From Deuterostichococcus epilithicus (lineage: Eukaryota > Chlorophyta > Trebouxiophyceae > Prasiolales > Stichococcaceae), in NCBI GenBank assembly GCA_033439295.1, contig JAVTLE010000015.1, positions 372,001-436,000 of the forward strand: a DNA stretch of 64,000 nucleotides. Reading direction: 5' to 3'. Shown piece after piece: positions 1 through 58,900 of this stretch. Position 1 is the stretch's first letter; each line of letters starts with the position of its first letter. The notes beneath the pieces are model-generated. The model was not told the DNA's origin. It saw only the letters and a program-made list of their open reading frames with translations, and made no database searches. The translations under genes and the position numbers were made by a program.

Positions 1-3000
1 CAGAAACGGAGATAGGGCTGTTATTCCACCACCAGCTGCCTGCGCATGCTGTTCGAGGTGCTGCACCAGCTCTTGCACCTGCAGTGTTGAATTGCGATCA
101 CTCGGTCCGCAAGGCGGGTTGCCGGTGATCTAAAGCTGCTTGGGAAACCAGGAGAAGAGCCAGCTCTGCCGCCTGCAGCATTTCAGGACGTACGGCCTGC
201 GGTTCGTGCCCCGAACTCTTGTGACAAAATCGACACGGAAAGGCACAGCCGTCAGCAGCCTGACCTGCCGTCCTTTCGACAATCCCAGATCGGGCACCAA
301 GCCAGCAACCAGCGGCTGAGTCACAGTGCAGAGGTAGTAGCCGGATGAAGGGTTGCAGGCGGAGGGCGCACCTCATATGATGCGCCGCTTGGTGCGATGC
401 CGCAGTCCTCCCTGATGGCTCGGATGGCCGCCTGCATGAAAGCAACATTGATGCTTGGTTCAGAGCTCGGTGCAGCAGATGTCCTCTACATTGGCTCAGC
501 AGCCATCACGAGATGACCAGCACCCCAGTAGCTGATTACATGAAGGGCCACAGCCTGTGTTGCGGGGAAGGCCACGCCTCCTGCAGCAGCCCCAACAGAG
601 GCGATCTGCAACATACGATAGCAGCTGCGTCTGTCATGCCGTTGAGAGGCAGACTGGTAGGCACAAGGGAAAGCGGCGGGGTTGGGGGCACACGAACAAA
701 CACAAGAGGCGTAAACCTTGATATCATTGCGTCGGCAGTCTGCCCGCCTTCTCCAGACGCAAGGATTAGGCAAACCACTCAAGTAGGAACGTCAGACGGA
801 CCTTGAAGTCGTTGCGCATCTGCACGCGGCGTTGCGAGATGCCTGCCATGTCGGGGTTGTCCACCGCCGCCGCTGCCGACAGTGGGCTGCTCCTCGCGGG
901 GCAGCACACCTGCAGGCAGGGGATGCCCATGTGTGTCAGGGCGACCCTTGCAAGACAGCGAACCTGCAGGCAGGCGTTCCACGCAAATGTCAGGAGGGCG
1001 CAGCCGAGCCAGCTGCAACAGGAGGTCCGAACAGCTGGAGCCTCCTCAAGACAGGCGCCTCAGTGCCTGGATCCGTCGCTAGTGGCAACTGCTGCCAAAC
1101 AAACAGACCAAGTCTGGCGAGAGTAGATTGCAAATCCAGGTGGGGATATCATCTCTATCGTCACAGAAAGCGCGCCTGGCCCATCTTGGCCGGGCTGTTG
1201 CGCAGGACCCAGAATAGAAACCACAGCAGCTCCGGCAGGTGGCGCAGGTTGGCGGCCTCGCTGTAGAGCAGGAAGTACAGCGCCAATTCTTCCAGCTGCC
1301 ACTCCCACACCTGCGGCCGCATCATTGGGCATCTGAGGGTGAGAGGCTGGCAGCGGAGACGGTAGGAAGCACAGCGCCGGCGCCTCCAGTCCAGCTGCCA
1401 CTGCTACGCCTGCGACTCCACACGTTCTCATAGGAACAGGGTGGGCAAGGCGCCAGTGGATGTACAGCAGAGTACAGCGGGTAAGTCAGCGCCAGTTGCA
1501 CAGTTGCCATTTCCACAGCTGCAGGCTGATTTGGGGTCCAGGGCTTAGGCAGGCGGCGCATCTTGGCGATCTCGCTGCACAGCGCTGAACCCTCCGCTGC
1601 CCACTCCCCGATGTAGATTACTGCTTGAGATGCAATGTCTGTGCAGGCTGGTTCGGAGCGCCGCGCTGTTCACGGCCACAGCTTCCAGATACCCGACCTC
1701 TGTCCCACGGCAAGTCCATCCTGCGGTGTCAGGAGACGACGCACCGGCGAGTGCGTCTTGCGCGACAGCGCGGCGTGCTGCACCGCCGGCAGCCGCGGCG
1801 GCAGCGCCACATGCTCGCACCAGTCCTCAAAGCCCTCCAGGATGCTGACGTGCAGCGCCTTGACGCACCGAGCAAAGCGCTCCACCTCCTTGCCTGCCGC
1901 GACAGCACAGTCGATTCTGACGCTGATTCATCTTGACTGAGACATCCTCCCTGGTGCACTGTCTCTTTAAGGCAGAAAGTCCAAGGGGGGGCGATAGCAA
2001 TAGGATATGCTGCCGCTGTCTGTGCAGCATTGCCAGACGCTTGCTCAAGGGGCGGAGAGACGGCAGTCCTGAACAGCGAGGCCGACAAGCACTCAGGGCT
2101 TGAATCCTGTACTCTTCAGCGGAAGGCGGCCAGGAAAGGCGGCCACTCAAGTGGGCAAGTTATGTACTGAACAGTGTTCAAGAAAACATACCGGATGTGC
2201 GAAGGTCGGGAAAGGCACGCACCGGGAATCTGGTCGCGGCGGAACATGTTCCGGACCAGCAGGTGATGGAGGTGCTCCGTCACCAAAAAGATGGTCGCCG
2301 GTGTCCACGCCTCCTCCTCCGTGCCCTGTTGGCATCGGTAATTTCGGGGGCTTGTACGGATATTTCAAACGCTTTTAAAGAAATCAGCAGCAGCAGCAGC
2401 AGCAGCAGCGGCGCACTCCAGGTGTTGCTGTGCCCCAAGCATCCCAGAATATGGCCTCGTGGGCGTTTTCGCAGTGCACGAAGCTTCTTCGTGACTGGCG
2501 CAGGTCAAAGGACGCTGTGCAGCACTCGCCTCCGTCGACGGCACCGCATTGAATGCCTGGAAGCCGAGATGGCGGCCCAGGCGGTGCACCGCGGTGTGGA
2601 TGGCCGCCTCAAAGCCGGCGGTGTTGGCGGCAGCGCCGAACAGCGTGCGTGCTTGCGCCGGCGGCCCCGACGGCCGCGAGGCTGCGAGCGGCACGAGCAG
2701 CAGAGCAGCTCAGCCCAGCATGCAGCAGCTATAACCGTGCAGGCAGGACAGTTTCCCGTCCGCTTGCCGAGCATCAAGGCTTCGCTACACTATACACAGC
2801 TACTGTCACATGCTCGGCTCTAGCACCAGAATCAAGTGCGCTGCTGGCAGCTTATCACCGGGGTGGAGTTGAGCACATGCCGTGCCTCTCAGCTGCACAG
2901 GGCCACAAGTGGCTGCAACCTCACCTGCCATGTACTGCGGGCCGCCGCTCTCGGACGGCGGCGGCGTCGCCGTCGGCAGCCCTGCATAGTCGGGCCCGCC

Positions 3001-16389: not shown

Positions 16390-16652
16390 TGCTGCTGGTT
16401 GTGAGTTTGCGGTGAGGTGGCGTGGGCAAGTGGAGCGTGAGGGGCAAGGTGGCGTGGCTTGCAGACTGGCGAACTTGATGGACACCCGATTGTGGATGAG
16501 GCCGGATTGCGTGACTGCGTCGAGAGTCGCTCCCGCCAGCTGCCCGTGGGGTCGATGATAGGCGCTTGAATGACCGACAGCTGAGATCGAACTTATACTG
16601 GCTGTATGACATGTAATCCTGTTTACTTTGTGATTGCACACAGCTTCACGAG
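16390..16652. promoter_or_regulatory. Compact bidirectional promoter, PsbR (-) / mTERF-like (+)
   Basis: Only 263 bp separate the two start codons, so transcription signals of both genes must overlap or abut here. The half next to the plus-strand gene is AT-richer (ACTTATACTGGCTGTATGAC at about 16590). No defined element could be assigned. Confidence 0.5.
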
Positions 16653-20500: not shown

Positions 20501-20987
20501 ACCTGCACTGCAGCGTGTCGTGGGGCGAGGAAGGATGTACAGCGGCAGCTAGCAGAACCATGCTGGGCACTATTAGCAACTTCACCCAGGTCGTAATTGG
20601 CGCTGCCGTTTGCAGTTTCCTTTCGAAGTAGACCGGCATGCGACGAGGACACACTGGCTCTTGCCATATATCGCAGGTTCCAACGGCGCATGGCGACCCC
20701 CTGCCTCATAAGCTGGCAACTGAATGCCGAACCCATCCCAGAAACCATGCAGCATCAGTAGGGTTTTGGGGGCCTGGTGAGCTGACCTCCAACGCCAGTT
20801 CATGCGTTGCGGGATGCACTGGAGTACCTATGACGAGCACCGATATCGAGCGTAATTGTGGAAGAGACGTACCGACAGTTTGAAGGGGTCTCGTTCTTGT
20901 CAAGGCAATGCATGCTTTAGTCATATGATCGCTATGCGCTGATCGATCCTCAGTAAGGTTGTACTTTACTTTGTCGCTGTCAGCTCC
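20501..20987. other. Intergenic, mTERF-like 3' end to amidohydrolase promoter
   Basis: Two plus-strand genes are separated here. The sequence becomes AT-richer from 20880. No gene, repeat or RNA was recognised. Confidence 0.4.
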
Positions 20988-24749: not shown

Positions 24750-27700
24750 TCACACCATGGCGGGCTGGTTGATGGCAGTGACCTGGACACAGCGGCAACA
24801 GCTGTCAGCTGCCAGACTCTTCGGTGCCGGGAGCGCTGGCGCTGGGTGCGACTGCAAGCAACGGGGTGAGCGAGCCACATTGGCGTGTAGCAATCGAGGA
24901 GAACGCACCAGCCGGTTGTACGATCGCCCAAGGGGATCCACGACCCGGGGTGCCTGCGCAGTGTCGGCACACATGCGTCGCATCAGACCTCAAGCCCAGC
25001 TAGCACCTCCACTGCATGCACCTATCACTTGTTTCAGCCACATCAACATCGAACACTGGGCTTTCACTCGCCTGAATGATAGTGGGTATCGGTAGGTACC
25101 TGCGCAGCATGCCAAACAGATTAGGGACTAGAAGTTGGGCAGGGGATGGGGACCAGCAACCTGTTCTGACGGCGATCGATGACCTGATGCAGGCAACGAC
25201 GACGGGCGCACATGGGCCCCACATTTCAAGGAGACTAGAAAGGTAAAGCAGAGACGTACACATAATGCGTGTTGACCAGGCCCACTGTGAAGCCGGTGTA
25301 CCCCGCAAAAGCGCCGTGCACTGCGCCCTGCCCTAGCACCTGCAAATGCAGCGAGGCGTCGAGCCCTGTTGAGCATGCTTAGAGGGCCAGCTCGCTCCTG
25401 GATCTGGCACAATGCAGGGTGGGCCTGCGCCGCAGTGGGCTGGAGAAGTGGCGCCGGGCGTTTGCTGGGCTGGCTGTACGCACTCGCACTGCAGCAGCCG
25501 ATGGCGGGGCCGGTCCTTGAGAACCAGAGAGGCGGGCATGCAGGCATGGAGCACTGGCAGTTGCCGGCATGCGGGGCGCATGGCAGTGCGTGCGGCGACG
25601 CGGCAGCAACCTTGCAGTAGATGCGGTCGGTGGTGATCGTGGCGCTGGCGCGGATCATGTAGCTGGGGTCTATGTATTTCAGGTCACACTGCGGGGGAAG
25701 CACAGCACGAGGGAAGACCATTAGCTCAGCAGGGAAACCCTTGTGTGTCAAGGGTCACCTTGCAGTAGATGCGGTCGGTGGTGATCGTGGGGCTGGCACG
25801 GACCATGTAGGAAGGGTCGATGTACTTCATGTAGCACTGCGCAGGCAGGAGGTGGTGCAGGGGGTGATGCAGGGGAGCGGCAGCGTGATGCACAAGGCGT
25901 GCGCCGCACTGGACGGACTGCTGTCTACGGCGTGCAGGCAGCCCGGCCAGCACGTTTGCGACATGGTCGAGGGGCGCATGCGCTGAAGTGGCAGCTGCCA
26001 AAAGGGCGGGATCTTGAAGGGGCCTCACGTCCACTTCCTTGCGGAAGATGCCGCGCAGGTAGAGCCCGATGTCCTTCAAGATGGGGTTGCCGCTCGCGTC
26101 CGTCTGCACATGGCCGTCCTCTGCCGCCATGTCCTGATGAGAACACGGATGCACAGTGTTGAAGCCTGAAGGCGGCGGCAGTCACCCCTTCACTGTGCAC
26201 GGCGCCGGAACGGACTCGCCGCTGCACTGCCGGACGAAACCCCAAACCCTACCTGCGCGAGGTTCTGGCCGGCGCCCTCCGCCACGCAGACAACGCAGTG
26301 CCCCTTGGCGTCCAGGATCTTGTTGACGTGCGCCAGTAGCTTCTCCAGCGTGAAGGGCACCTCCGGGATGAGGCAGATGTCCACAACGCCTGCAGCGCCA
26401 GAGTTTGTTGACTGACAAGCTGTTGATTCACGTGGCTAAAGCTGCATCATTGCAAAGTGTCCAGCATGAGCGGCACCTCCGGGATGAGGCAGATGTCCGC
26501 CCACGCCTGGCCATCCTGGGAGCGAGCTGTTTGATTGACGTCGGGCCACACGTTGGCCGTTCAGCTGTGCGTGCCAAACGCGGCCGGCGCGCTGGCATGG
26601 TTGATGTCCGCCGTATTTGCTGGCGGCACGCATGTCTTTTGTGTTCGACCCGGATACAAGCAGCAGTGTGATTTGCACTCAAGCTGTCAGTTGCACAGTC
26701 TCTTCAGATGGCAGAGGCAAGCACTGCTAAATCAGAGCGGGTAAGAGTCACCCCTGCTGGAAAGGTGCAGCCGCTGTGCTCGCCATCTCAAATGGGCCCG
26801 CAAACGCTGCAGATTCTCAAGGACCTCGATCGACCATGCACACTTGCTGCCTGGGCACGAGTCAGCATTCCCGGATGCGCAATGGTTCAACGGCAAGGGC
26901 AAGACCTCGTCGGAGCACCGAACCGCTTGCTGCGAGTATCAACAGGCGCACCCGAGGCCATGGACGCCTGCATGGCGATGAAGCCGGAGGAGCGGCCCAT
27001 GAGCTTGACAAGGCCGATGCCGCGGCGGGTGGACCGCGCCTCGACCTTGGCGGCCATCAGCGCTGTCTGGCTGCGCTCCACGCTCGTCTCGAAACCAAAG
27101 CACTTGTCGATCTGTGTGGTGACCGGTTTTTCAGGGTCAGGGACGGGGGCGAACGTGGGGGATTAGTGAGGACGCCTGGAGGTGTGGCTGGTGCCCGCCC
27201 GCTGCGGGGTGCAATGTCCAAGCTGGCGTTTCAGCACACACTAGATGCTGCCATGCCTCAAGAAAACGCGCACAGCATGGTCTGTGTCTGCAGTAGAGGC
27301 TGAGGTGCCGAGTGCGCAGGCTCTCAACACCCAGCTGCTCCCACATTCCGCGATGTACACGCCCTGCGCGGTCGAATGCATGCAACAGGCGGCCGCCAGG
27401 AGGGGCCGGTCGCGCACACACCAGCAGGATGTCGTTGTCGATATTCTTGGGGATGCCGACAGCACGGGATTGCCGACAAGGGATGCCGACACCTTGGGGA
27501 TGCCGGCACCAGAAGGGCCAGGCGCGCACACCAGCAGGATGTCGTTGTCGATGGACTTGGGGATGCCGACGACGGAGGCGATGACGCCCTGCACCTCGCA
27601 CTCCTTCTGGATGGCGTTGGCCGCCGCGTTGCCGCCGTTGCCGCCGACGACATACAGCTGGTTGACGCCCCACAGCTTGAGCCGCTTGACGATCTCCGTG

Positions 27701-33800: not shown

Positions 33801-36800
33801 ACTGCCTGCCCACCTTGCCTTGCTGCTCGAGCACTCGCATGTGGCATTGGCATCGATGCCGTCCCATGACTCAAACGGATTCAATGGTGTGAGCTTGGCC
33901 TGCCTGCCCAGCTGGGTGGTGCATAGGGTTCGAATAGAAGAAGCCATCCCCCTACTGTCGACCTTGACCCCTCCTGCGGCTCGCGACCTCTCCATTGAGG
34001 CTGCCAAGACTGAGGTGTGCCGATTTCCTTCGGTTTGCAGTCGGTGCTGGCGCTGCTGAAGGAGGTCGTGGAGCACGCCAATGGCGCGGCGGCGCCGGCC
34101 TCGTGTCTGCCGGCCCTGGAGCACATCGCGGCGCTTGTCACGCCGCTTGCTGCGGCCGACAACTTTGACGAGGACGCCTGGGACAAGGTGTGTCCCTCGC
34201 AGGAGACACTCATTCCAACCGTATCTCCTGGTCACCACCTTGAGGAGTTTGTGCATTCGCTGTTTCACCAACCATGACTTGCGCGTCCTGACGCCTGCGG
34301 GTGCCGTCTCCACACTGGTGCGTCTGGGTTTGACCCTCGAGCTGATGCAGCCGCCTGCGTCAGACTCCTTGAGCGCCCTCACGCGGAGCTGCCTGCACTC
34401 GTTTGGCCACTGGACAGCGACATTGAGATCTGCCGTCAAATGCAAGACCAACTGACCATTCTATTGAAACATCAATCATAAGTGCAAAGTTTGAACTGCC
34501 CGCAGTGCTCGCGCCCATACCTGGAGAGCGTGCTGCCGCGCCCGGCGGCCAAGGCGGCCGCAGCTGCGCTGCTGTCCAAGTGTGACCACCGCGAGCACTC
34601 TGACGAGTCATCGGACGACGACGAGGGCATCGACCTGTGCAACTGCGAGTTCAGCCTGGCCTACGGTGAGAGCACTCGTGCATGCCAGACAGCATGCCAG
34701 ATCCCAATGGCAAGATCCACAAGGACGAAGAGGAAAACGGCAGGAAGGGCAGGGAAGGGGAGGAATGACCGCACGGCTTGCAACAGCCTCGCAGCCATCT
34801 GCGCATGGCGAGGCAGTGAGGCCTGGCATGCAGCTCTGTGGCTGCCTGTTAAACCTGGAAATTGTGTGATGAATGCGAGAGACAGGGGTCCGAAAAAGAA
34901 GGGCACTTTTGCAGCGCAGAGAGCCGGGCTGCACTGCACCACTGCGGCCGACATCATGGTGCCGGGTGGCCAAGCCTGGTGGCACCACTCAGCGTGTGAC
35001 ACGGACCTTGGTGACCCCTGCGCAGGTGGCAAGATCCTGCTGAACAAGGCGACGCTGCACCTGAAGCGTGGCCGGCGGTACGGTCTTTGCGGCCCCAACG
35101 GCGCCGGCAAGGTGCGCTGCAGCTGCCTCTCAACATTTCTGAAGCCTGTATGAGCTCATGTGATCATCAAGTCTGCACACCAGTTGCGGCGCAACTGCAT
35201 ACCAGACTCATTGCCTCGGCTCATGCGCTGCATTGCCGGCAGCCCTCGACCGGTGACCCTGTGCGCTGTAACCCCGCTATTCCTGGAGATGCCCCCAGCA
35301 CAGTCAGCGCTCATGTGCAGCATTGCCGGCGGCAAGCTAGGTGCCTTCCTGTGGGTCTTGAACCCAAATCCAATTGCAATGTTCTGCCTGCAGTCGACGC
35401 TCATGCGCAGCATCGCCAGTGGCAAGCTGGACGGCTTCCCGCCCAAGGAGGTGCTGCGGACGGTGTATGTGGAGCACGACATCGACGCCTCGCAGGCGGA
35501 GACGTCCGTCCTCGACTTCGTGGTGCACGACCCCATGCTGCACGGTGAGCACCCTTGTTACTGGGCTACTGTGCGTGACTCTGACGGCTTCACGAGTCTT
35601 TGGAGCTGGTGCGTCATGGGCATCGGCCGCGCCCTCACTGGCAGCGGCCCCTGCCGCCGGGCGAGCCGGAACATCACCATGCCCGGAGGACCATCCAGCG
35701 CCGAGCAACCGGATCCTGCCTGGTCCGTATCTGAACACTGCAAACTGTCGTGCTGCTGGTCTGACGCCTGGCTGCACATTGCCACAGGCATGGGCATCCC
35801 GAGGGCGGAGGTGTCGCGGGTGCTGGAGTCGGTTGGGTTTGGCGACGAGATGCGGGGCGCTTCCATCTCCTCGCTGTCCGGCGGCTGGAAGATGAAGCTC
35901 GCGCTCGGTGAGTGAATACCCTTCCGACTCGATGTATCTGGCAGCTGGTGTTTTGATTGCTCTTTCAAGCACGCGACTGGCAGTTGAACTCAGGTAGCTG
36001 GACGCCCGCCCTGCATGCGGGCTGCCCCAGAGCGCTCGTGCACGTTGACCCACACCCCCTCTGTTCAATCTGCAAGACAGGTCGCAGGCGCTGTTCTTCG
36101 AGCTGTGCGCTTGCTCAGGCTCAATAACCCACACCCACTTGTTCCCCTCGTGCAGCACGCGCGATGCTGATGAAGGCGGACATCATGCTGCTGGACGAGC
36201 CGACCAACCACCTGGACGTCAAGAACGTGGCGTGGCTGCAGGGCTACCTGACAGGGCTGCCCGACGTGACGAGCGTCGTGGTGTCCCACGACTCTGGCTT
36301 CCTGGACGCCGTGTGCACCGACATCATCCACTATGAGAACAAGAAGCTGAAGCACTACAAGGTTTGCAAATCCAGCTGCCCTGGTGACCTCTGGCGCAGC
36401 TACCTGCTGGCATGTTGCGTGCGCTGTGCATCGGCAACCCTGAAGCACTTGTGCCACTGAATGCTTGGTTGCGGCCTTGCCAGACAGCCTGCGTCCTAAA
36501 ACTCATGTGGAGTCCTTTTTACAATGATGGCGCTTGCATCGGCTCATCCACAGCGCCCTGGTACCGCCACCCTGCAGGGGCGACGGTGGTGCTGGTCCAG
36601 ACCATGCCGGCGCTCTCATGCTCTGCCTAATCTGCGAATGCCCCAATTGGCTACAGGGCAACCTGTCCGAGTTTGTCAAGGTCAAGCCGGAGGCCAAGGC
36701 CTATTACGAGCTCGGCAGCGCGGCGCTCAAGTTCACGCTGCCCAAGCCGGGATTCCTGGACGGCGTCAAGAGCCGTGAGCTGGCCATCCTGCGCATGCTG

Positions 36801-39756
36801 GGCGTCGGCTTCACGTACCCGGGCACCCAGCGGCAGGTCCTGAAGGACGTAGTCGTGCGGTGCAACCTCAACAGCCGCGTCGCGGTGCTGGGGGTGCGTG
36901 CCTTTTGGGCCTCTTCTCCCCTCTGGAAAGTGGGGCCCCTGCAGCGATACTGCCTGCTGTGGCAGCGCGTTGCTCTGCTGCGGTTGCTGGCAAGCTCGTG
37001 GGAGGATGCACTGACTTTGGCGCTTGCTTTCCTTCTCTCTTGTCAGAAGGCACCCTGTTCGACCTGCTGAACTGCGCCCCATCCAGGGCGCCTCGTGTGG
37101 TCAACCTTCTGATCGTGGCCTCGCCTACCTCCGCCTTTGCTTCACTCTCTCGCCGATCCCTCATCTGCATGATGTTTGCTCGCCTGCAGGCCAATGGCGC
37201 GGGCAAGTCCACGCTGATCAAGCTGCTGACGGGGGAGATGCAGCCCAACGAGGGCTCCGTGTGGAAGCACCCCAACACGCGCGTAGCCTACGTCGCCCAG
37301 CATGCCTTCCACCACCTGGAGCAGGTGTGCACAGCCTGCTGGTCCGCTCTCCTACGATGCTGCAGGTGCCAGTATGCAGGGTAGCAGGTGCGAGTGTGTC
37401 CTGCACACACGGCAGTCCTCTGCAGCAGCAAGGTTAGTCATCATGTCCTGTCGCCGTCATTAGTGATATCTCCCCAAAAACTGCAAGCCGTGAAGGCTGC
37501 AACTATCGACGCTCCTGCTTTGCAGCACCTGGACTGGACGGCGCTGGAGTACATCCGGTGGCGGTACGAGATCGGTGAGGATCGCGAGGGCCTCGACAAG
37601 GTCGACCGTGCGGTGAGTCGGGCCCGAGCGCCCGCTCCCTGACATGACTGCCAGTGTTCGTGCGGCACGTTGAAGACACGTCACCCACTCACTCGCCGAG
37701 CTGCAGCAGTGTGCTGCGTCCCACCGGACCTGCCTCAGATCTGTAAAGGCAGCCGAGCCGTCCTGTGCCGTTCCCGTCCTAAACCCATAAACCTTGCACG
37801 CCGCAGCTCACCCCGGAGGAGAAGGCACACCTGGAACGTTTCTTCACCTGGGACGGCGAGTCGCGGCGCATCGAGTTCTTGAACTCGAGGCGCAAGTCCA
37901 AGAAGACCTACGAGTACGAGGTCAAGTGGATGGGGCTGCGCGACTCGCGCAACTCCTGGATCACCCGCGAATCGTGCGTCCTCCCCCTCTGCTCCTCTCC
38001 TTGGGAACACTCTCCCCCTGCCCCTGACCTGATGCAGTGCCGCCCCAGGTTCCCGCTGGCCATCGGACCTTGCTCACCGCAGCTGTCTCTGTATGTGTCA
38101 GGCAGCCTTGATGGCATGCCCACGGCCCGCGACCCGGCGCTGCAGCTTTGCGGCAGCCGCCTGCGCCAAGCCCGTGATCGAGATGGACCTGAAGGACAGC
38201 CTCTCAACTCTGCTCGTGCGATGCTCACGTGCAGGCTGGTGGGGCTGGGCACCGCCTCAGCTCCACCAAGCTGGTGAACGAGGCGGAGATGAGGGAGGCG
38301 CAACTGAAACTGAAGCGAAACCGACCGTTTGCTTGCAGGCTGGCGGAGCTCGGCTTCACGAAGCTGGTGAACGAGGTGGACATGAAGGAGGCGGCGCGGC
38401 AGGGGCTGCTGGGCCTGGGCTCCAAGCCACTCGACAGCGACCACATCCAGGCGCACCTGGCGGACTTTGGGCTCGACCCAGAGTTCTCCACGCACTCGCG
38501 CATGCGCGGCCTGTCGGGTGGGTGCACTTGCAAGCTCCTGATCCGGCTGGCGCCGACGCGCTGGGGGTAGCGCCGCGGCGCCTGCGGCCGTGCGCCGTGC
38601 GCAGACGCAGGATGGCACGGCGGCGGGCGGCATGTGTGTTGATCTCGCGAGGCGCCGCTTGATGCTACCTGATTTGCGGCGCCTCCCGGGCAGCGATCCG
38701 AGGACGGGCGGCACTCAGAGAGCGACATGGGACCGACCTGCAGCTCGAGAGCTGCTCCGCTCCATGGACGCTGAGCTGTGGCGCTGCTCCTGGGACACAG
38801 GCGGCCAGAAGGTCAAGGTGGTGCTGGCGGCGGCGATGTGGAACTGCCCCCACCTGCTGGTCCTCGACGAGCCGACCAACTACCTGGATCGGGACTCGCT
38901 GGGCGCGCTGGCCGACGCCATCAAGGTCTTCGAGGGCGGAGTCGTCATGATCAGCCACAACACAGGTGCGCGGCGGCGCTGGCAAGCTGGCAGCTTGGAC
39001 ATGCAGGCAGGGGCCGACGCTGCAGAGGCGCTGCGTGCCTGACTGGTCAGGCACGCGGAGTGCAAGTCTCCTGTGCTGATTGCAGGGGGGCTTGCCTACG
39101 CCAGTGTCTGTCAGTGCTGCTGGCCAGTGGATGTGCAGAGCTGCAATGCGCATTGTGTCTTGTTCTCCTGTGAAGAGATGCCATGCGCTGACTTGCGCTC
39201 GCCACCCGCTGCGCGCAGAGTTCACCAGCGAGCTGTGCGCGGAGACGTGGGTGGTCAAGGACGGCACCGTGACGGCGCTGCTGAAGGGCGTCAAGCTGGA
39301 GGGGCAGGGCGAGGAGCACTCGGAGGCCGTCCAGGCGCAGCTGGCGGAGGCGTTGAAAGAGAAGGCGAAGCAGAAGGCTGAAAAGGCCAAGTCGCTGGCG
39401 GAGAAGAAGGCCAAGAAGGAGGAGGAGCGGCGGCGCAAGTTCGCCAAGAAGGTGAGCGCCGGCGGGACAACAACGGCGTGACAAGCATGAAAGTACACGT
39501 ATGCTGTTCTACAACGGCGCTGGCGGAGTCAGGGGGGAAAGCTGCGGTGGGATGGGTTGCGGCATCGCCAGGATCGTGCGCTGTCAGCATGCTGCTTCGG
39601 ATCCCAGCCAGTCAGATTCATCGCCCAGCGTAGCGTGTTAGTGTGAACGACCATGTGTCAAATGTCAGTCTGAGGTGCTCCCCCTGTTGTGTTGCGCAGG
39701 GCGGCAGCCTCATCACTGCAGGCGGCGCGACATGGCAGAACATTGGCGTCAAGTGA
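30864..39756 (+). CDS. Translation elongation factor 3 (eEF3), HEAT-ABC-ABC ATPase with chromodomain
   Basis: There are 23 exons: 30864-31013, 31118-31146, 31186-31372, 31590-31715, 31976-32104, 32343-32492, 33024-33134, 33368-33457, 33666-33767, 34041-34187, 34506-34665, 35026-35111, 35394-35544, 35788-35907, 36156-36361, 36657-36893, 37190-37324, 37526-37612, 37807-37973, 38339-38517, 38801-38965, 39219-39451 and 39700-39756. They close in frame to 1067 aa (yeast eEF3 is 1044). Domains: HEAT repeats 1-~405 ([14 protein letters not shown]), [14 protein letters not shown]1 (GPNGAGKST ~482-491, [21 protein letters not shown]), ABC2 (ANGAGKST ~728, LSGGQKVK ~915, [17 protein letters not shown]) with the eEF3-specific chromodomain between them ([16 protein letters not shown] ~840), and a Lys/Glu coiled tail. 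eEF3 uses ATP to help release E-site tRNA. Introns cut the ABC1 Walker A and ABC2 signature codons. Confidence 0.95.
35220..35442 (+). repeat. Triple 90-bp tandem repeat at the eEF3 exon 13 acceptor
   Basis: CTCATGCGC-like blocks start at 35220, 35310 and 35400, exactly 90 bp apart. The third is real exon 13 ([15 protein letters not shown]). The second, preceded by its own cag, reads [15 protein letters not shown]. The first is shorter and more decayed (LMRCIAGS). Confidence 0.9.
38231..38400 (+). repeat. 104-bp tandem copy of the eEF3 exon 20 acceptor edge
   Basis: Real exon 20 starts at 38339 (gcag|GCTGGCGGAGCTCGGC, encoding [17 protein letters not shown]). A copy starts at 38235 (gcag|GCTGGTGGGGCTGGGC) and contains [12 protein letters not shown] in a shifted context. 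It lies in intron 19. Confidence 0.9.
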
Positions 39757-40391
39757 GGTGGCAACACTGGTTGCCGCATCGCGTCACACGGCGTGGGCCC
39801 CTAACATATGGTGATCTGCACGGTTTTTTTTTCGGCGGCTGCTGGTGCCGCAAGTCTGGAAAGGGAACAACAGTTTCGGTCATGAGGACCGCCAGTTGGT
39901 TGTCGGATACGTTCTTAGGACACGGCGTAGTGTTTGGACATCAGGAGGGTCTCTCACCAAGTAGAATCACAGTGCGCGGCGCATTGAATTGAGGTTTGCA
40001 GGAAGGTCTGACTTGGTTTGTGCCATTGCTCTGTTTTCCAGACATCTGGGGTATGCCTCTCTAGTGGAGCACGATTCTTTGGAAATGCTAGGGCCCGCTT
40101 TCGTGCCGTTCGCCACTTAAAAGTCTGCGGGTTGCACCCGCCGTACCTCGAACTTCCCAAGCTGTACCAGACCGTATTTCTGGCAACACCGTCTGCACAG
40201 TTTGTGCATTTCACGCATGCAGATCGTCTCCGTCATCGCCATCGCCATCGCATCTTCTCTTGTCCGCACGTCATCATTGCTTAGTGTTGGTAGGAACACC
40301 CGCTGCTGTTGATGCATGGCACATATTCTCGGGGCATCGGCACTTTGACTCGAGCTGTAAGCGGCTCTGCGGAGCTTCATCACCAGCAGAA
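39757..40391. other. Intergenic, eEF3 3' end to P450 promoter
   Basis: About 630 bp, AT-richer than the genes. It contains an 8-T run near 39825 and a CATCGCCATCGCCATCGCATC microrepeat near 40234. No gene was recognised. Confidence 0.4.
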
Positions 40392-42938
40392 ATGCACCTC
40401 ATGTGGACCACTACACTAGTCTCCGGCATCGCATTGTGCTTGCTCGTGCTCGTGCTACGGGTGATCCACCAGGTGCTGCAGCTGAGCGCTGGCGGCGCGG
40501 CATTTCTGGCGCACAAGCGAGCGCAGCATGGCGACGCCTTTCAGATCGGCGCCTTCCCGCCGCGCCTGGTGTTTCTGTTCCACCCGGCGGCGATTCGGCA
40601 GTTCTTCACGGCGCCCATCGACGAAATCGACTTCCGCATGGCGGTCGAGCACTTTACGAAGCGCGTCTTCCAGGTGTCCGCCCGTGACTTGCACGCCGCA
40701 TCCGAGGGCAGAACCAGAGAACCATGCACCGATGTGGCGCTGGCAGGCTGCATGTACCTGGGTTGAGCGGGAGGGCTCGCGGCACGCTTCCATTCATGCA
40801 ACTTTCCATAGCTGTAGACTGCCTCATGGGCTGCACTCAATTCCCCTTCGCAGCTGTCGAACGAGGGCTTTTTCCCGCGGCACCAGCGTCTGTGGCGTGG
40901 CCTGCGCAACCTGCTCACGGGCTCCTGCGTGCCGCTGCGGGCGGCGCAGCTGTCGCGCGGGCTGCAGGACACGCTGCTGACGGCCTGGCCTCCTGTGGGG
41001 CAGGAGGTGCGACTACATTCGAGCTTGAATCCGTCGGAAATTTACACTCGAGGAAGCATCTGAGAGAAGCATCTGAGAGAAGAAGTCCTCGAACTTTTCT
41101 CCTCAAACAGCAGTGACAGTGGCCCTGTGCAGGGCATGCTTCTGATAGCTCGGCGCCCATCATTGGATGGGCTGCGACACCCAGCTGCCGGGCGGAGCAC
41201 AGAATCCATCTACACACACACCTGCAATATGTCACCGGCCGCAGTGCTCCCAACCGGCACTGGGCATTGCCACACACACTGCCAGCCCTGTGTGCAGGTC
41301 GACCTGCTGGACACGGTGAAGGCGCTGCTGTTCGGCTGCGTGGCGGAGCTCCTGTTCGGGCGCGACTTCCTCGAGGCGCATGGGCGGGTGCCGCTGCAGC
41401 GGGCCTTCTTCGAGTTCGAGGAGGGCTTCGAGCTGGCGGCCAGCCCGCTGCCGCACGTTCTGCAGCCGCGCTTCTGTGCCGCTCGGCGGACGCTGCTTCA
41501 AGCCTTCAGGTGGGTGCGCAAGAGGTTCTTTGCTCATCAGGCGGTCATCTCGTGGAGCGTCTGTGCATACACAGGATAGCGGCACCACAAGATATCGGCA
41601 CCTCGCCTCCATGCACGGTCGCTCGCTGCAACTCTGCTCATGTTCTGGGCGTGCGACCCGCGGCGCAGCTGCTGGCAGACGCAGTGGGGCCTCTAGGACG
41701 GGTGCATGGGGCCAGCCAAACGTTTCTGCAGCCGCAGTAGCCGAGCGCTCCATGTCTTGCAGGGAGTCAGTCTCCGCCACACGCTTCACGGGGTCCGTCG
41801 TGGCGGAGCTGCTGGCGGAGGCAGACATCTCCGACGCCGAGGCCCCGCACATCCTGCTGGCCGTGCTGTGGGCTGCCATGGTGAGGCGCCGTCTTTGAAT
41901 GCGCTGTTGAGTCATCTGACCTACCGCAAATGCAGGCTCCTGCTCCAGAGCTGCACGCTAGAGGTCTGCTGCTGTGCGCACACGCTGACGGCGCACAGCC
42001 TCAATTTTGCTGTATCTCCAGGTTATATTCTGTGGTGCACGCAGGCAAACTCGGTGCCGGCTGCCTTCTGGACGCTCGCCGTGCTGCTACTGCCGTCGCA
42101 GCGACGACTGCTGGCAGACATTCGGGCGGCGGCGCCGGAGTCAGACGACCAGCTGGCACAGCATGCAGTCCAGGTGAATAGTCATACATGCAGCGAATCT
42201 CAAAAGTGGAGGGTGGGATCGCCTCGCGACGAGATTCAACGTCTCACCCACCGAGGGCAGGCACGCTGCTGCACTTCCAGCATCAGAGTTGTGACGGCGT
42301 CTGAGCGCCCAAGTCCATTGGCTGGTTCGCACAGATGGCGCTGGATGCCCGCAGCACAGTGCGGCTGTGTGGCGACGAGGCCATCAGGCTGTTCAGCCCC
42401 AGCATCGACGTCAGGTGAGGTTGAGCAGGGCAGCACAGGACCTGCTTCCCTCCGCCTCGCTGCCTGAGGCACCTGCTCAGTAGACAACCGAAGCACCTGA
42501 GGCCGCTGCTCGGCCTTGCATCTCTGCTGCCAGGTGCTCCGCCCGTGCACAACACAGCTCGGTAGGCCCTGCAACCATCACTTGGGCCGATTTCGCTGGC
42601 ATTTTGGACTGATGGCAGTATATCGCTGCAGGGTGGCTGCGCGGGACCTGGTGTTGCCGGCTGGCCCGGCGGGGCGCGGCCTGCGCATTCAGCGTGGCTC
42701 CATCCTCGCCGTCAGCCCCTTCCTCAGCCACCGGGACGAGCGGCTGTTCCCGGACGCGCCTGGCGCCTTCCATCCGCACCGCTTTGCCGGCGGCGGCCCG
42801 AACTCGGGCCCCGTGGCGACAACGGCGGAAACGGCAGAGGTCCGGCCAAAGGGCGGCCAACGTCGATCAGACGGCAGCGGCGAGGCTTTTGAGGCGGCTG
42901 TCGACAGCCGTGGTGGTGCTGCCTCTGCGGATGGGGCT

Positions 42939-42969
<31 letters not shown>

Positions 42970-49940: not shown

Positions 49941-52900
49941 TCAGTGGCTGGCGGCGGCGGCGGTGCCGTCGACCGTCGCAGCGCCCTGGCCCACCTTGAA
50001 TGACAGAGAGGAAGAGATGCAGGCTCAGGGAGCTTCAGAGAACGTCAGCAGGAGTCGGGTGCCGTGCAGCTCTGCTCTGCACAGGGTGGGGTGGGCAACG
50101 CAGCCATGCCGCCGGCGGTGCTGCAGCTGCGATCCAGGGCGCACGCTCCCAATATGCCCGTCGCTGGCTCGGCATCACCAGGCTGCAGCACAGCAGCAGA
50201 CATACAGACGCCCTCGGCTGCACGGTACCCTTTGATGCTGCCTGCGACATGGCGGCCACTCCCTGCTTGCGCCGGCATCCGCCCAGCGGGTGCTGCACAT
50301 GTCGCTCCCAGTCAAGTATCCAGAAGACAGCCCCCTTGTTGTAAAAGAGAAACAGCTGCCGGAGGTAATATAACGAAAGGAACGCACCACGATGACCCGG
50401 TCGCCGTCCTCGTAGGCGTGCTTCTGCAGCGCAGGCGGCGCCAAGTGCAGCGGGCCGTCGCCCGATAGGAAGCCGATGGCCGTCTCGCCGCGAGCTCGCG
50501 CCTTCTCCATCACCTGTTTCGAATGGAAGCAAGCGGGAATATGCACCGATCTTCGTATGTTTTCATACCTTCGTACGACTAGAAGGTAGCCAATGGCCGC
50601 CTCGCGGTGCGCCGGTGCCGCACATACCATCTGTCTAAAGCAAGGGACAGTTGTACGTTTTGACACACACCATTGAGGCAGGTGGCCAATGGCCGTCTCG
50701 CCAGCGCCTCAGTCAACAGAGGCTTCACTGGTTAGCTGGGCAGGCAGACAGGAAGCTGACGAGCTATCGCGCAGGGAGTCCACACACATGGCGCTCTAGT
50801 GCGAAGGGTGTAGGCTGAGGGTTTGGCATTCCATCTACGCACTGGGGCAATACATGATCCGTAATGCACAGGAGGAGGGGCAGAGGCGCATCAGGGAACA
50901 TGAATCTGCACACGGCAGGGAGTCCCCCCTGAGGGCGCACCTCCAGGAAAGGCACTGGGTCACGGCCCCACAGGCCGTACACCGAGGGCCGCTGCAGCGA
51001 GATGCCCTGGCCTGCGACGTGGAATGCAGGCTCCCTTTACAGCTTTTCATTGAGCTGTTCTGGACGACTCATGCGGCGTGCCAGGGGAACTGCAGCCAGG
51101 TGGCCGGCAGCCGTCAAGGCGGGGCCAGCCTGGGCCCATCTTGGTCATCTGAGAACGGTGGCCTGCTCTGCGACCCGTGCGGCCCTGCAGGCGGCCACCC
51201 AGGCGGGTTGCTTGACCAGCTTGAAGAGCGCCAGAAGCTGGGGCTTGACCCGGGTGAAGACCTCCCATTCTGTGCAGGGCGTCGGCACGGCGTGGAGGCT
51301 CTGAAGGCAAGTACACTCCGCGTATCCCCAAACCCTTTCGGCTTGCTGTGGAACTGAGCGTCTCGAGCACCCCCGCCCGCGGGCACGCGGCGGCCGGACC
51401 GCCAGTCAGGGACCCGGGGCAGGCAGCGAGCGGCGGGAGGCGGGCTTTTGCGAGTTTGCTTTTGCGGTTTTGCTTTTTTACATGGAGACGATGAGGGCGC
51501 ACCCTCGTTTGAGTACAGGAAGTTGGCGAGCAGAGCGGCGAGATCGGGCTCCGCCGCCACCTGGCAGATGACGCCCGACACCAGCTCCGCCGGCTGCAGC
51601 AGCTCCGCCGAGATGGCGTCGCGCCCCAGCTTGCCTGCGAATCATACCAGCACGTCTAAACCATGGCTCGTTTCGTGTGACCAGCCAGCCCTGCCGGCCG
51701 CAGCAGCTCCGCCGAGATGGCGTCGCGCCCCCCAGCTTGCCTGCGACAGTGTCAGTGACTCTGGTTCATGGCTTGGTTGGCATGGCCAGCCAGCTCCGCC
51801 AGCTGCAGTGCCTCCGCGGGAACCGCAGTGCGCCTTGCAGCTTGCCTGCAGCGCGATCAAGGGTGCGATTTGCCCGAGAATGTGGTTGGACAGGTCGTGT
51901 GCACAGGGCCACGACGCTTGACTTGCAGCCACTCCCAGGCGGCCCAGCACGGCGCGCCAGGAGGATGCCGCTCCGTCACGGCTCGCAACGCTGGCCTGAC
52001 CAAGCGCGCTGGTCGAGGCTGCCAGTGTCGAATCGCAGACGCATGCGACGAATGCCTCAGGGCTGGATCCAATCGCACGGCGCCAATGGACTGCCGTGCC
52101 TGTCAAACCAGCCTTCCCGACTGTGCATGCGGGCATCTCCAGCTCGCCAAGGGAGGGATGTATCCGCACCGACGAGGTAGTTGGCGACATCGACGGTCTC
52201 GGGGCGGCGGACCATGCCCACGATGTGCAGAGGGGGCCGCTCCTTCTCCCGCCCGCCCGTCACGACTGCATGCTGCAGCACCACCAGCGTCGACAGCACC
52301 AGTGCGTCCGCCTGCATGTTGCCGAATGACATCGCTTTCTGTTGGATATTGGATGTCAGATGAAGATTGGCTATCGCTTGACAGTCGGTTTTGCGATTGT
52401 GACCTCACATGCTGCAAGGTTGTCGCACGCATAGACGCCAATCGCAGCCAGATGCGCTGCAGCGTCGCCGGCACGGGCAGCACTGGCGAAGCACTAGCTC
52501 TTGATTTTTCTTATCAACAGACGCAGCTAGTCGTGGGTCTGAGGGTGGCAGGCGCTGCAACGCAGCGCACAAGCCATGCCTCGACACGATGCCAGACGGT
52601 TTCGGCAGCTGCTCCGGCGGATGCAATTGGGCTCGGCGCACGGAGGGACAGCGCCGTCCTCGCCCAGACCCATCCTACCACTCAGTATTCCCATATCGAG
52701 AAATTTCAACATGTCGAGAGCCAGAGAACCGAACCTCCTTGGGCGGCCGGGAGTCGGCGGCGCCGAGGATGACGGCGTCGGCATGCGCCACGCCCGCCTT
52801 GGCCAGGCTGTCGGCGTCGGCCGGGTCGCCCTGCACCCAGTACATCTTGCAGCGCAGGATGGGGCCCGCGGCGCCCTCCGGAAAGCCCTGCAGGCCACCG

Positions 52901-55900
52901 GGACGAGTTCAGTGCAGGGGCTGAGGAGTTGAGGCTGTGGGCGGGGCCGCGGAAGCTGGAAGGCACGCCCGCGGGAGGCCGGAATGCCGCTCTGGGGTGC
53001 GTGGGGTGCGTAAACAAGGCTGCCGCCAGGAGTGCCGCTGGCTTTCGTGCGCCCTATGCCGGCAACCCTGCAAGCCCCTGCCAGCAATGCGCGGCGCAAG
53101 CCGCAGTCGGGGGAGCCGGAGGCCGCTCAGGCGGCACAGGAGCCACTTCCGGAGCTTCCAGAGGTTCCGCATCAACCAATGCCCAAGCCACCGTCCGCCC
53201 ACCTCAGGCTCAGCAAAACCCCGCTGCTCTACCGCCTCCGTCGGTAAACAACCTTGAATCCGGAAGAGGCCTCTCGACTCTCGTACAGATCTCCTACCTC
53301 GGGCTCCTCGTTGGCAACGATGGTGACGGTGGAGCCGCGCGGCGTGAAGCGCTGCAGGCTCGCGGCCAGGTCCGCGATGGACCCCTCGTGCCAGGCCACC
53401 ACCACGTGCTGCGCCTGCGGCATGGCCAGGACACACAACATTCACTCTATTGATGGGCCAAGGGTGCATGGCGCACTGGAGAGCACGCTTGGTGGCCTCG
53501 TGCTGGGCCAACGAGATGTGACCTGCCTGTGTCGTCTGCGGTGGATCGCTGAGAATGGACGGTCAAAGCAGACGTGGCGTTTAGGCGAGAACAAGGAAAG
53601 AGCATCGGATGCATTTCGGATAGGGCGAGCCGGACGCGAATGGTCTGGCCGGCACAACCGCCCATGATGGCGTGTGCTCATCGTCCTGCACACGGGCTTG
53701 GGTGCGAACTGACACCGCTGGCGTTGGCAGCGTGAGGCGGCAGCGCACACCTTGAGCTGGGTGGCTTGCGTGCCGTCCGGCGGCGGCGGCCTCCCCGGGT
53801 TGCGCGAGGTCTTGATGTGCGTAGCGCCCGCCGCCGACGCGGACTTTGCCGCTTTGAAGTAGCCTGCGGGGCCGGGAGCAAACGGTTGCCGACACCCAGC
53901 CAGCAGTCCTTGCCCGCGCCCCACGCTTCGCAAACCCCTGTGGAACAGAGGCCTGGGGGAAGGAAAACAAGTGTGCACCGCATCCCGCAAGTGGCCACAG
54001 CGATGCCACAGCACTGACGACATCAGGGCGCTTCTGTGAAGCAGGCTGCCTGATCCAACAGGACGGGGTGCGCCGCGGGTGCACAGCAGTCGTATGTGGG
54101 GTGTGGAGGTAGCAGAGACAGCCAGGGGAACGCACTGGTGCGCGCGAGCGCCACGACGCGGTCTTTTTCCTGGATGACGGCTGTGTCCGGCGGGTTGGCC
54201 CTCAGCACCTTGTCCTTCTTGCTGATGTACCTTCAGGTGCGGCACATCACGAGCATGAGGGCATGGATGTCCCAAGGCTTGTTTGTGTCGGATGGCGGCG
54301 TCTGTCTCCGGGGGGCTGGCCTGGCCCTCATCACCTGGCCTCTGCTGATGTCCCTGCACCGGCGCCCTTGAATTCCGAGCCTTTCAATACTTACTTTGAG
54401 ACCTCATCAGCCCCCGTGCAGCGTGCTTTCCCGCTGTTCCCGCTGTTCCCTCAGCAGCACAACGTCTTGGGTTGTCTTCAGATCCTTGCAGCATGCTTCC
54501 CTGGATCCAACGCCCTACTGTGTGCCGTAGGCCCCCCCTTGCTGCTCCGGCAGTCGTCCAAACGCGCGACGTCGCGCATACCTCACGCTGTACTGCCAGG
54601 TTCTGAGTTCACAGGCAGATGGCAGAACTGCGTTCCGGAACAGCCACCGCAGCTGTTTTCCATTACCCGAACCGATGCACAACTCCAGGGCAGAGGGCGC
54701 GAGGCGCACCCATAAAGCACCGCGTCCGGCAGCCGGCGGCGAGCCTCACGGTAGGTGCAGCCCGCCAGCTCGGGGAAGTCCTTGATGTAGAACTCGCAGC
54801 CGTCGCGTGTCTGCTGCACGATGGCGCAGTAGACGGAGGCAACGCCCGGCTGCACATGGGCAAAGAAGACGGTGACTCTTGATATGGATAGGCATAAGAC
54901 AACAGGATCCGTATGGAGGTGTTGTCTGCTGCATGATGGCACAGTAGGCCCACGCCACACCCGAATGAGGGGGATTGGGAGGCACACAACAGGGGTGACC
55001 AATCCTGCACTTGGAATCCAAAAAGGAGACATCGGAAATGAGGAATCAGAGCAAAGACGACAGAGCGATGCCGGCTTGCATGGCGACAAGCGTGCACGGG
55101 AAGCATGGTGGGTGGAGCGCAGAGACTGCGCAGAGTCGCTGCGACTGGCTGATGCTTCGTCACGAACCACCTCGCTTCTGGCCTCAAAGGTCGGTGAAGG
55201 AGCCAGCAGCGCGACGTGGGCAGTTCATGACATATCTCATGCGCACCGCGACACGAAGCACGCGAGCCAGGCCAAACTTTGGCGACCACGGCCAAGTCAC
55301 CCGCTGCAGGCCCCAGCTCAAGCTCGCACTGGGAGAGCGGCAGCCCTGTGGCGCCGGGAGGGGCCCCGATCCATTGCGGCGCCTCCTGATGCATAGGTGT
55401 GCACCGATGGTGATCCTGGTTGGGCGCACCGCAACTGCGCACCTGGCAGGCCGACAGCGCGAGAAGCAGCGACATGTCGCGCCGCCCCGACAGGTTCGTC
55501 ATGCTGACCTTCTGGTTTGACGATTCAAATGCGCTCCGCGCTGTCTCCAGCACCTGTGCGGGGTCGCATTTGCTGTCAAGACTGCCAAGGCCGGCGCAGG
55601 GCCCCCAGCACAAGTCCCCAAATTCTGAACCCAGCAGGAGGCGGCTCTGCCTGCGGTGGGTCGTCAATGGCGAACCAGTGCAGGCGCTGCATCAGACAGC
55701 ACGTGGGGCCGCCGACTTTGCCATGCGGCAGCTCACACACAGCCTGAGGCGAGAACAGCCCCCCCCCCAACCGGTGCTGTGCATTCTTGATGTCTAACTC
55801 GAGTCTGACCGAAACAAACCTCATTCGGCTAAATACAACCTTGCTGCAAACTGAGAGGGTGCGGTGTTTAGAGGGGACCCACCTCAGCGTCAGCAGGGTC

Positions 55901-58900
55901 GAGGGGGACCTGCACCGCAATGTTCTGCGGCTTCAGGCGCATGAAGGGACGTGCCACCGTGGTCGACCGCGCCGTCTGCACGCCCATGACGGCAGCCACC
56001 TGCTTCTTGCCCGCGCCCTGCGTCAGTGGAATGAAGGCCCGTGAATGCAAGGCGCATTCACCCACAGTCTGCACGCTCTTGACGGTAACCGCCAGACTCT
56101 TGCCTGCATACTGCATTTCCGCAACTGATGCTGCCTCTGACTCGCCCCGCATGGGCACTCGTCCTGCCTTGGGAATCGCCCTGTAGGAGCGGTTCCGATC
56201 CACAGGTGTCAGCCTGGTGCAGTCCCAACATGTGCAGCTGCTAAGTGTCTGTGAACACGGCTCCACTACACGCAGCAGGGCTTTGGATCAGCTGAATGGC
56301 GCCCGAACATGCCGCAGCACGTGGCTAGTACCCTCTGGGCGCTGCCCTCAATCGCAACCCGGGTTCACAGGCTTAAGTTTTCTCGGACCTCCTCCGAGGC
56401 GCAAGTCCTCCACATCCACGCTTGGAATAATCAAAACCTGCCATCATGTCGGCTGACCCCAGCACACGGGGCGCAGACATGGATGCGCTGGGGCCAGCCG
56501 ACATTCTGGCAAAGGTTTATCAAGCCCAGGCATCTACCATCACACTTCAGGCTGCAACCACCAAGACAAAAATCGTGTTCGACGCAAATGCCTACATCAG
56601 CTGTGGGGGAAGCAGGATGATAATCTGCGCCCGTAATTGTGGTGCGACCTGCCCCTTGCCAGGGGTTGGTGCCGCCCTCTTGACTTCAAAGCCAACAAAC
56701 CGGCAGAATGCACGCGCCTGTGCCAGCTCCGGGTGCAGCAGGATGATGGTCTGCGCCTGCCCCGCCGCGACGCTCTCCAGGTCGGTCACGCAGTGCGGCG
56801 CGCCGGTGCGGGTGTGCCACTGCAGGTTCTTGAACCCTGCCAGCGCCCGCCGAACCTCCTCATCCATCTGCGCCTTGTCCGCCTCCGCCATGACCACCAC
56901 GTCCCTGAGACGAGGGTGAACAAAAGGGGTAGAAACTGAACATGCAACTCAACGCAACTCCGTATTTTGGTACCACGCCTGTCTGGCGTCTGATGCACAT
57001 CGTCAGCAAGCATGGCAGGGACGTGCGGCTGCAGGCTCCGCCATGACCACCACCTTGCCTCAGCAGCCAGCCTGTCGAGCCCAAAGGGAGACGGGTGCTG
57101 TGGGTGCCCGACAACACCAAGGGTACATGAGGTCGGCACAGGAGAAGATTTGTAAATGCTGCAGTTGAGAGCTGCAGATGGTGGAGAGTGCGCACCCCTG
57201 GAAGGCGTCAGAGCCGCGCTCCAGCTGGCAGATGGCGATTTGACGCAGCAGCGGGATGGTCTCCCGGTTCCAGTTCAAGATCACGGTGTGGTTCACCGCC
57301 ACCACAGGATGGTTGCCGCTGATCAGTTTCTGCATGGCATGCAATCGTCCTGTCACAGCCCTGTCCATACACCGGACGCAGCCTCAGGTTGCAGAGCTGC
57401 ATGCTAGGTGGAAAAGGATGGTGCACTGGCAGCATCTGGGGGCTGCATGAGTGGGCGCAGTGGCGCATGCCGCGGTGATAGCATGCGCGTCTTCCGGCGC
57501 TTTCAAGTACTCCCAACTGCAGGCACACCTCTTTCTTGAGAAGGCTCGAAGGATGGAAATAGAAGACCGTTTCAACCTCGAAAATTCTGCCTCACCTGGA
57601 CTCGCTCCATGATGTCGCCAGTGATGACACCCAGCACCGCCGCAAAGAGGTAGGTGCCCACCAGCCACACCAGGTTCATAAACAGCTGCCGAGGGAGGGA
57701 GCCCTCCCCCAGCACCACCACGCCTGGAGGCCACAGGTCATATTCGACAAACTGGTTTGAAAGAAGTATCTTCAAATGTGCTCCGCCAGCCATGCCAGGT
57801 TCATGGACAGCTGCCAGAGAAAGCTCGCTTCATCCTTAATTTACGATGCAAAAGGATGTCAACATGCAACTGCTCACCTGGCATGTGGTACGGGCTGCTG
57901 TAGATGCCCGGGAAGCCAGCCGCGGTGCAAACTGGTTTTCAGGAGATGCCAGGGCACAGTTTGGGCTCTCACCAGGGATGTGGTACAGGCCGCCGTAGAT
58001 GGCGAGGAAGCCGGCCATGATGGACTCCTTGGCAATGAGGGAGTACAGGACGCCACCCATGACCACCAGCGGGATGCCCGCAATGAAGACCGCCACCAGC
58101 TTCTGGAACAGCCCGCCGAGCGCCACCTGCTGGATCTGCGGTGGAGGCGGGGCAGAGACAGGTGTGGGCCAGGGGCGGGTTTCCAAGGGGCATGATTTCT
58201 GGGGCGAGGCTCGGCACCGACCGGGACAACGAGCACTGCTTGCGGCCGCCGTAAGACGTCGTCGCCGTCTGCAGCGGGCCCGCGGCACATTTCCCGTAAG
58301 TGCACAGATCCGCGCACTTGGCCAGACAAAATTGTGCTTCAAATCCAGCAGGCGGCCCAAAGGCCGGCGACCATGCAAACAAGCGCAAGGCGCAACGACC
58401 TTGAAGCCCAGTTGGGACATGAGGTACATGGAGCGGCAAAACCAAACCTCCACGCTCGTTCAGCTGTGCAGTAGATACCATTACATGGACCAAACACTGC
58501 TGCCTGGGTGGGCTGCTTGAGCTGACGCTGAGAAATGCATGTACCTTGAAGCCCAGCTGGGAGATGAGGTAGCTGGGGCCGCTCCGCGTCCACCGGAACA
58601 TGCGGCTGAGGCGGTGCGCCGCCATGCGCCAGTGAGACTCCCGCCGCTGCTGCGACGCCCGCAGCTCATGGTCCCGCTGCGCGTGCGGAAAGAACGGCAG
58701 GCGTCAGCCAGCAGCGCGGCATCACAGAAACTGACAAATGCTCCAGAACACTGACTAGTTCGCAAACTGCCTTGAGACAGGGGAAATGCCTAAATCCTCA
58801 ACCCTGCCACCCGGCCTGTCTGCACTGCGCTTGCAGGCGCAACATGCTGCGAGCCGCTGTCGAGCTGCACCTCATGCACAGCGCGGGCGCAAGCACGGTG

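Follow-up and report, generated by a model that had tools for sequence, protein, structure and literature searches.

The introns of compact green-algal genomes are long without an agreed cause, and a 64,000-nucleotide stretch of the Deuterostichococcus epilithicus genome (assembly GCA_033439295.1, contig JAVTLE010000015.1, positions 372,001 to 436,000; hereafter the window) raises the question of whether scars left within introns hint at how they grew. In several of its genes, among them those for PFK, eEF3, a putative glucan synthase and a putative channel, introns carry decayed copies of the edge of the adjacent exon. We find that these exon-edge duplicates are real and recur outside the window, and with moderate confidence we attribute them to old head-to-tail tandem duplication of an intron end together with the exon edge, followed by roughly neutral decay of the intronic copy.

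The window (C13:372001-436000 of a genome of 46.8 Mb in 21 contigs; GC content 62%) was compared with 17 stretches of 10 kb, taken at the identical coordinate from one contig each, three contigs that were too short being omitted. The resulting 234 kb were later extended by four stretches and the region of the eEF3 paralogue eEF3b (L035) to 282 kb in 23 records; labels such as L006, L007 and L022 denote records sampled outside the window. Exon coordinates were taken from a self-trained ab initio hidden Markov model (HMM) that used no transcripts, and some single edges are wrong. The models comprise 491 introns with a median length of 251 nt and the acceptor TGCAG/G. The HMM-built, hand-edited PFK protein aligns to the PFK family at 274 of 277 positions and the eEF3 paralogue appears as one continuous protein, which supports the gene finder, while single edges are still fallible.

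All the distances between copy and exon given in the initial annotation were recovered: 90 (eEF3, 35301/35391), 104 (51581/51685), 105 (the second interval of the same array, 209 minus 104), 110 (27412/27522), 115 (54808/54923), 116 (26344/26460), 117 (50467/50584), 126 (56598/56724), 145 (58398/58543) and 148 (25609/25757). Further cases in the window have offsets of 93 (38256/38349), 93 (55974/56067), 95 (57873/57968), 125 (57658/57783) and 153 (56883/57036), to which offsets of 99, 209 and 314 at 1234-1583 are to be added. An ungapped self-scan of the 234 kb for offsets of 10-600 returned 95 merged direct repeats, 40 of them at 90-149, and nearly all pairs in this peak have one arm in an exon and the other in the next intron; the 40 include three repeats within coding sequence of L015. 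By comparison, only six inverted repeats reached score 16, none with arms 85-170 apart. One dinucleotide shuffle yielded no ungapped match at score 17, and gapped BLAST of one shuffle gave seven matches at 28 bits, all of which were gone at 34. Tandem Repeats Finder (TRF) at score 30 reported none of the exon-edge repeats, the longest period that it listed being 24.

In a further test on the 282 kb, 471 internal exons were each compared by alignment with the two introns flanking them (942 combinations; exons shorter than 45 nt and N-containing stretches left out). At score 14 or above, a copy was found in 39 of 942 combinations, as against none of 1884 introns from other records and 3 of 920 non-adjacent introns on the same strand; among the adjacent introns in reverse complement, 4 of 942 scored as high. 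Lowering the score to 12 reduces the contrast (69/942 versus 23/1884 introns of other records). The offsets lie at 85-155 in 31 of the 39 matches, with one at 72 and seven at 193-314, among which 193, 213 and 314 are members of arrays. In all but one of the matches the exon segment lies no more than 41 nt from the edge facing the intron, and acceptor-side matches outnumber donor-side ones by 25 to 14. The window holds 15 matches, L022 seven, L016 five, L024 three, L013 and L018 two each, and L006, L009, L012, L014 and L021 one each; the remaining 12 of 23 records have none, although L007 and L020 still contain pairs whose copy had been annotated as an exon by the finder. The dense loci L016 and L022 presumably encode an SNF2-type helicase-like and a chromodomain DNA methyltransferase-like protein, judging by translation with no family search. 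The view that a single recurrent process with a narrow period is centred on exon edges is supported, also outside the window. Duplication scars at about 4% of the tested exon edges can be counted, dated and compared between relatives. An assembly artefact is unlikely, since exon and copy differ by 4-31% across all tabulated segments other than one of 18 nt, and collapse or misassembly would not create such differences.

The anatomy of the copies was examined in the tabulated pairs. Among 39 repeat rows at offsets of 85-170, from which the L015 coding repeats (6400-7200) were excluded, seven lacked a facing exon edge, six of these being intron-intron repeats and one (38256) a copy in eEF3 which the gene finder had merged with the exon it derives from; the remaining 32 (22 acceptor, 10 donor; offsets 90-153) were tabulated. 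Their similarity extends over a median of 46 nt on the exon side and of -1 nt on the intron side, i.e. it ends at the splice junction, and a median of 65 nt separates copy and exon. Offsets divisible by three occur in 12 of 32 pairs, about the chance share. Several loci form near-regular arrays of three or four copies, namely eEF3 35394 (spacing 90/90), eEF3 38339 (93/100) and channel 51634 (104/105), and further arrays are found at channel 50513 (117/96), glucan synthase 1310 (99/110/105) and in L007 (120/123). Homology between the intron halves reached p<0.05 for 5 of 31 pairs, one L007 pair being left out of this and the codon-position test, and is clearest at L007 7187, L022 4956 and 51634. 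The regular arrays and the loci with homologous intron halves argue for tandem duplication, one of the origins suggested from the window, with a unit made up of intron end plus exon edge.

How the copies change bears on whether they serve a purpose. Codon differences between exon and copy comprise 51 synonymous and 134 nonsynonymous changes (185 in total, stops excluded), and mismatches at codon positions 1 to 3 amount to 12.2, 15.1 and 21.8% (54/444, 67/444 and 96/440; 31 pairs), a pattern that fits a drifting copy facing a constrained exon which changes mainly at third positions. The copies decay roughly like neutral DNA. In 35 of 39 aligned segments the reading frame is both open and maintained; these are short and were picked for high similarity, so that open frames are no evidence of coding use. 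The suggestion that selection maintains the copies because they act as decoy splice sites or as regulatory pseudo-exons draws on the AG or GT that many of them retain by eye, even old array members (TGCAG at eEF3 38141-38145). At the exact offset, however, only 6 of 24 copies at acceptors and 6 of 14 at donors keep the dinucleotide, a count blurred by mispredicted edges and gaps, the codon differences look neutral, and the eEF3 and PFK paralogues lack an exon-intron repeat at the thresholds used. Selection for decoys thus found no positive support, and we regard it as very improbable. Nor is an ongoing process supported, as identity does not reach 95% over at least 40 nt in any of the 32 tabulated pairs.

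Tandem duplication remains the most likely origin of the copies. A unit of about 85-155 bp straddling an exon-intron junction would be copied head to tail, probably when staggered breaks or paired nicks are repaired by end joining. The exon copy attached to the exon body would stay in the mRNA, while the other would come to lie within the lengthened intron, where it would be skipped by splicing and decay in a near-neutral fashion. Most events would be old; the intron-intron parts would then largely have faded, while coding constraint on the exon arm would keep the copy recognisable, and the persistence of the copies is most readily explained by this constraint. A related route, in which tandem duplication of an exonic AGGT creates a new intron whose length equals the period, belongs to the same general family of mechanisms (PMC4974935). 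It has next to nothing in its favour here: in 23 of the 31 pairs, those in which the copy was not called an exon, the copy lies 20-733 nt from the far exon (more than 100 nt in 20 of the 23), and copy-bearing introns have a median length of 280 nt, while the offsets have a median of 120. The geometry of intron gain, with copies at both ends of an intron as long as the period, was not observed. With regard to introners or transposons, four DNA queries (window 51500-52175, 24700-39800 and 16600-24200 and the whole of L022, each queried in one piece) returned their own place, paralogous-looking exons or short matches.

If tandem duplications strike anywhere, the exon-edge placement might merely reflect where they can still be seen, as the initial annotation had considered. 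Exon-only duplications would be lost to selection, and exon-intron pairs would outlast intron-intron pairs. We simulated uniformly placed events under assumed rates and indel settings. At a steady rate, neutral decay gave 0.69 exon-intron pairs per intron-intron pair, whereas about 33 (the 32 tabulated and eEF3 38256, with the PFK whole-exon pair described below included) against 6 were observed, all 6 by our reading inside exon-edge arrays. The simulation further predicted that 41-50% of pairs would extend more than 10 nt into the intron and that 76-79% would show homology of the intron halves, compared to 3/32 and 5/31 observed; were the intron halves to decay at the copy's own divergence rate, 23-26 of 31 should be visible where 5 were seen. 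Random duplication at a steady rate that is visible only through an exonic arm is therefore improbable. An old burst of 0.2-0.3 substitutions per site (T) comes closer, as it approaches the observed identity, the stop at the junction and the sparse intron-half homology (expected in 9-28% at T=0.3).

Several figures nevertheless weigh against neutral tandem duplication as a complete account. A threshold-free count of 6-mers at offsets of 85-155 showed a clear exon-intron excess of about 449 (masked 165) and a weak intron-intron excess of about 219 (masked 105), values interpolated from tabulated counts with a Poisson error of about 60 each, larger with clustering; part of the latter excess stems from the exon-edge arrays themselves. 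With simulated 6-mer figures scaled to 35 strong exon-intron matches, T=0.2 gave 459 and 512 exon-intron 6-mers under two indel settings, near the observed value. The same runs predicted 28 and 14 strong intron-intron matches, as against 6, and 666 and 581 intron-intron 6-mers; T=0.3 gave 544 and 676, and ages of 0.05-0.4 as well as the steady rate all gave at least 544. The intron-intron signal thus falls short of every neutral simulation by a factor of about 2.5 or more, and the old burst was rejected as a full answer owing to this overprediction. The masked intron-intron value alone fits a young burst (T=0.1), which far overpredicts the unmasked signal, and no single neutral age accounts for all figures. 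In the simulations larger units are also easier to detect than the 85-155 class, yet offsets above 155 account for only 7 of 39. Limited visibility explains much of what is seen, but it leaves an intron-intron signal that is too weak, which under the assumed rates suggests some preference for exon edges beyond visibility. Such a possible residual preference and the limit on unit size are not accounted for by the neutral simulations.

A rival explanation is a process tied to the splice junction, one that copies only the exon edge with its splice site, e.g. through breaks concentrated at junctions or through break repair on an RNA template that has been spliced in full or in part. Such a process would account for the abrupt end of similarity, seen in the intron-side median of -1 nt, the lack of detectable relation between intron halves in 26 of 31 pairs, and the scarcity of intron-only repeats together with the low intron-intron signal. 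Against it stand the loci in L007, L022 (4956) and at 51634, where the intron half was duplicated too, and the near-constant array spacing at several loci, which is not expected from independent edge-only insertions; moreover, we know of no tested mechanism for such copying. We consider it unlikely. Doubtful too is the wider reading that a duplication process coupled to splice junctions, with units mostly up to about 150 bp, places copies of exon edges in adjacent introns genome-wide and has contributed a substantial part of the intron length. A genuine preference for exon edges would mean that splicing or chromatin at the junctions influences where DNA is duplicated.

Local tandem duplication of an intron end and exon start with co-copied splice signals is the essence of the Rogers/Hellsten model and of the potato RdRp gene, where a single such duplication gave a new intron and an extra exon (PMC4974935); in contrast, D. 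epilithicus has dozens of copies, some arrayed, in existing introns at many sampled places. Intron gain via exon duplication has been described in Drosophila (PMC2891723), and repeats of 4-30 bp occur near splice sites (PMC11782384). In Daphnia, direct repeats of 4-17 bases at neointrons, the young introns averaging 77.7 bp, are credited to staggered-break repair, and repeated bouts may lengthen introns (PMC4202315). The D. epilithicus copies likewise lie near splice sites, but similarity extends over 18 to more than 90 nt, offsets are 90-153 and introns measure about 250 nt. Short-unit tandem duplications also arise when protruding ends are filled in by CST and Pol alpha-primase and joined by non-homologous end joining (NHEJ), the size depending on the point along the overhang at which priming begins; unlike for the copies studied here, no exon-edge preference is described in the accessible part of that account (PMC8355091). 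In Auxenochlorella, heterozygosity is 4.02% in introns and 3.44% at four-fold sites (PMC12636532), so that algal introns need not be hypermutable. The advantage of long introns is stated to be unknown, and the mechanism behind intron length likely ancient, in a Chlamydomonas comparison (PMC8226300). The accessible part of the Coccomyxa genome paper makes no mention of such copies (PMC3446292). Our literature search, whose reach did not include the Chlorella variabilis genome paper, recognised no prior description of exon-edge copies in introns. Exon-like repeats in Chlorella introns have reportedly been remarked on, and priority is therefore uncertain.

One case differs in kind. The 148-bp pair in PFK, classed as an exon edge in the initial annotation, is a whole 78-nt exon. 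Both copies are open in the same phase with intact splice sites, 74 of 85 aligned bases are identical, including all of the last 32 exon bases, and two PFK sequences of solved structure are matched by the segment that contains copy B (E 5e-8). Based on these features, the two could be a candidate pair of mutually exclusive exons. The layout resembles tandem exon duplication with mutually exclusive exons, from which the remaining tabulated cases, mostly edge-only copies, differ. In a PFK paralogue on C19 the exon duplicated in the window occurs once, and no exon-intron repeat of this kind was found at score 13; eEF3b has none at score 14. The introns before the two matching exons measure 176 and 168 nt in eEF3b versus 282 and 365 nt in the window eEF3, the 365-nt value resting on a manual reading of the exon start in a region that the finder had split.

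The window loci are compiled in Table 1. The glucan-synthase gene was assigned from the earlier reading and a weak FKS1_dom1 match (24.5 bits, cut-off 27). The PFK exon predicted at 27493-27726 probably has its end, and thus its true donor, near 27532, as judged by a PFK motif. We take the exon at 41763-41880 to be P450-like from a familiar motif. The channel gene is a putative one, the name following the earlier reading; a Pfam search with a 325-residue fragment of its product gave no match.

Table 1. Exon-edge copies and the duplicated PFK exon in the window (window positions).
Feature	Position of copy or copies	Strand	Remarks
Glucan-synthase-type exon 1176-1310, acceptor part, three decayed copies (1390-1414, about 1472-1522, 1548-1583)	1390..1583	-	Spacing 99/110/105
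PFK exon copy B, 78 nt	25611..25688	-	Frame open, AG and GT retained
PFK exon copy A, 78 nt	25759..25836	-	Frame open; offset 148 from copy B
PFK exon 26253-26389, acceptor-edge copy	26460..26509	-	Offset 116, 1-nt insertion, CAG retained
PFK exon end and donor, copy	27412..27460	-	Exon seed 27522-27570, offset 110
eEF3 exon 35394-35544, acceptor edge, two copies (35219-35243, 35301-35349)	35219..35349	+	Spacing 90/90
eEF3 exon start 38339 (manual reading), copies from 38146 and 38235	38146..38300	+	Similarity offsets 193, 93; TGCAG precedes both
Exon 41763-41880, weak copy of segment 36-62 nt inside	41659..41684	+	Offset 140, score 16
Channel exon 50388-50513, segment, two copies (50584-50605, 50680-50701)	50584..50701	-	Spacing 117/96
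Channel exon 51503-51634, acceptor edge, two copies	51685..51849	-	Spacing 104/105; intron half of nearer unit matches too
Channel exon 54710-54849, acceptor-edge copy	54923..54963	-	Offset 115
Channel exon 55883-56017, acceptor-edge copy	56067..56107	-	Offset 93
Channel exon 56718-56904, donor-end copy	56598..56631	-	Offset 126
Channel exon 56718-56904, acceptor edge, 18-nt copy	57036..57053	-	Offset 153
Predicted channel exon 57596-57723, copy of segment 33-66 nt inside	57783..57815	-	Offset about 125
Channel exon 57973-58135, donor-edge copy with GTGAG	57873..57921	-	Offset 95
Channel exon 58545-58676, donor-edge copy with GT	58398..58437	-	Offset 145

Other repeats were noted in the sampled records. 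A tandemly repeated coding unit of 102 bp, or 34 codons, at L015 6413-7100 stands outside the exon-edge counts, and an intronic repeat at L013 1299-1401, 94% identical at a 51-bp offset, is among the few recent-looking intron-only duplications. The genome contains a light-harvesting gene family, as befits a green alga; in one pair examined for alignable recent paralogues, BLAST matches were confined to exon pieces. Of 298 predicted donors that lie between longer exons, 31 are GC, the finder permitting GC, a share far above the usual 1-2%. Telomere-type 8-mers of the TTTAGGG family gave 21 matches at 16 places in the 282 kb (shuffle mean 3.2), all in records from L006 to L026 (e.g. L016 4697, L020 1780 and L021 705) and none in the window. 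The 8-mers could be repair insertions or telo-box promoter elements, and two of the places sit in spacers adjoining exon-edge copies.

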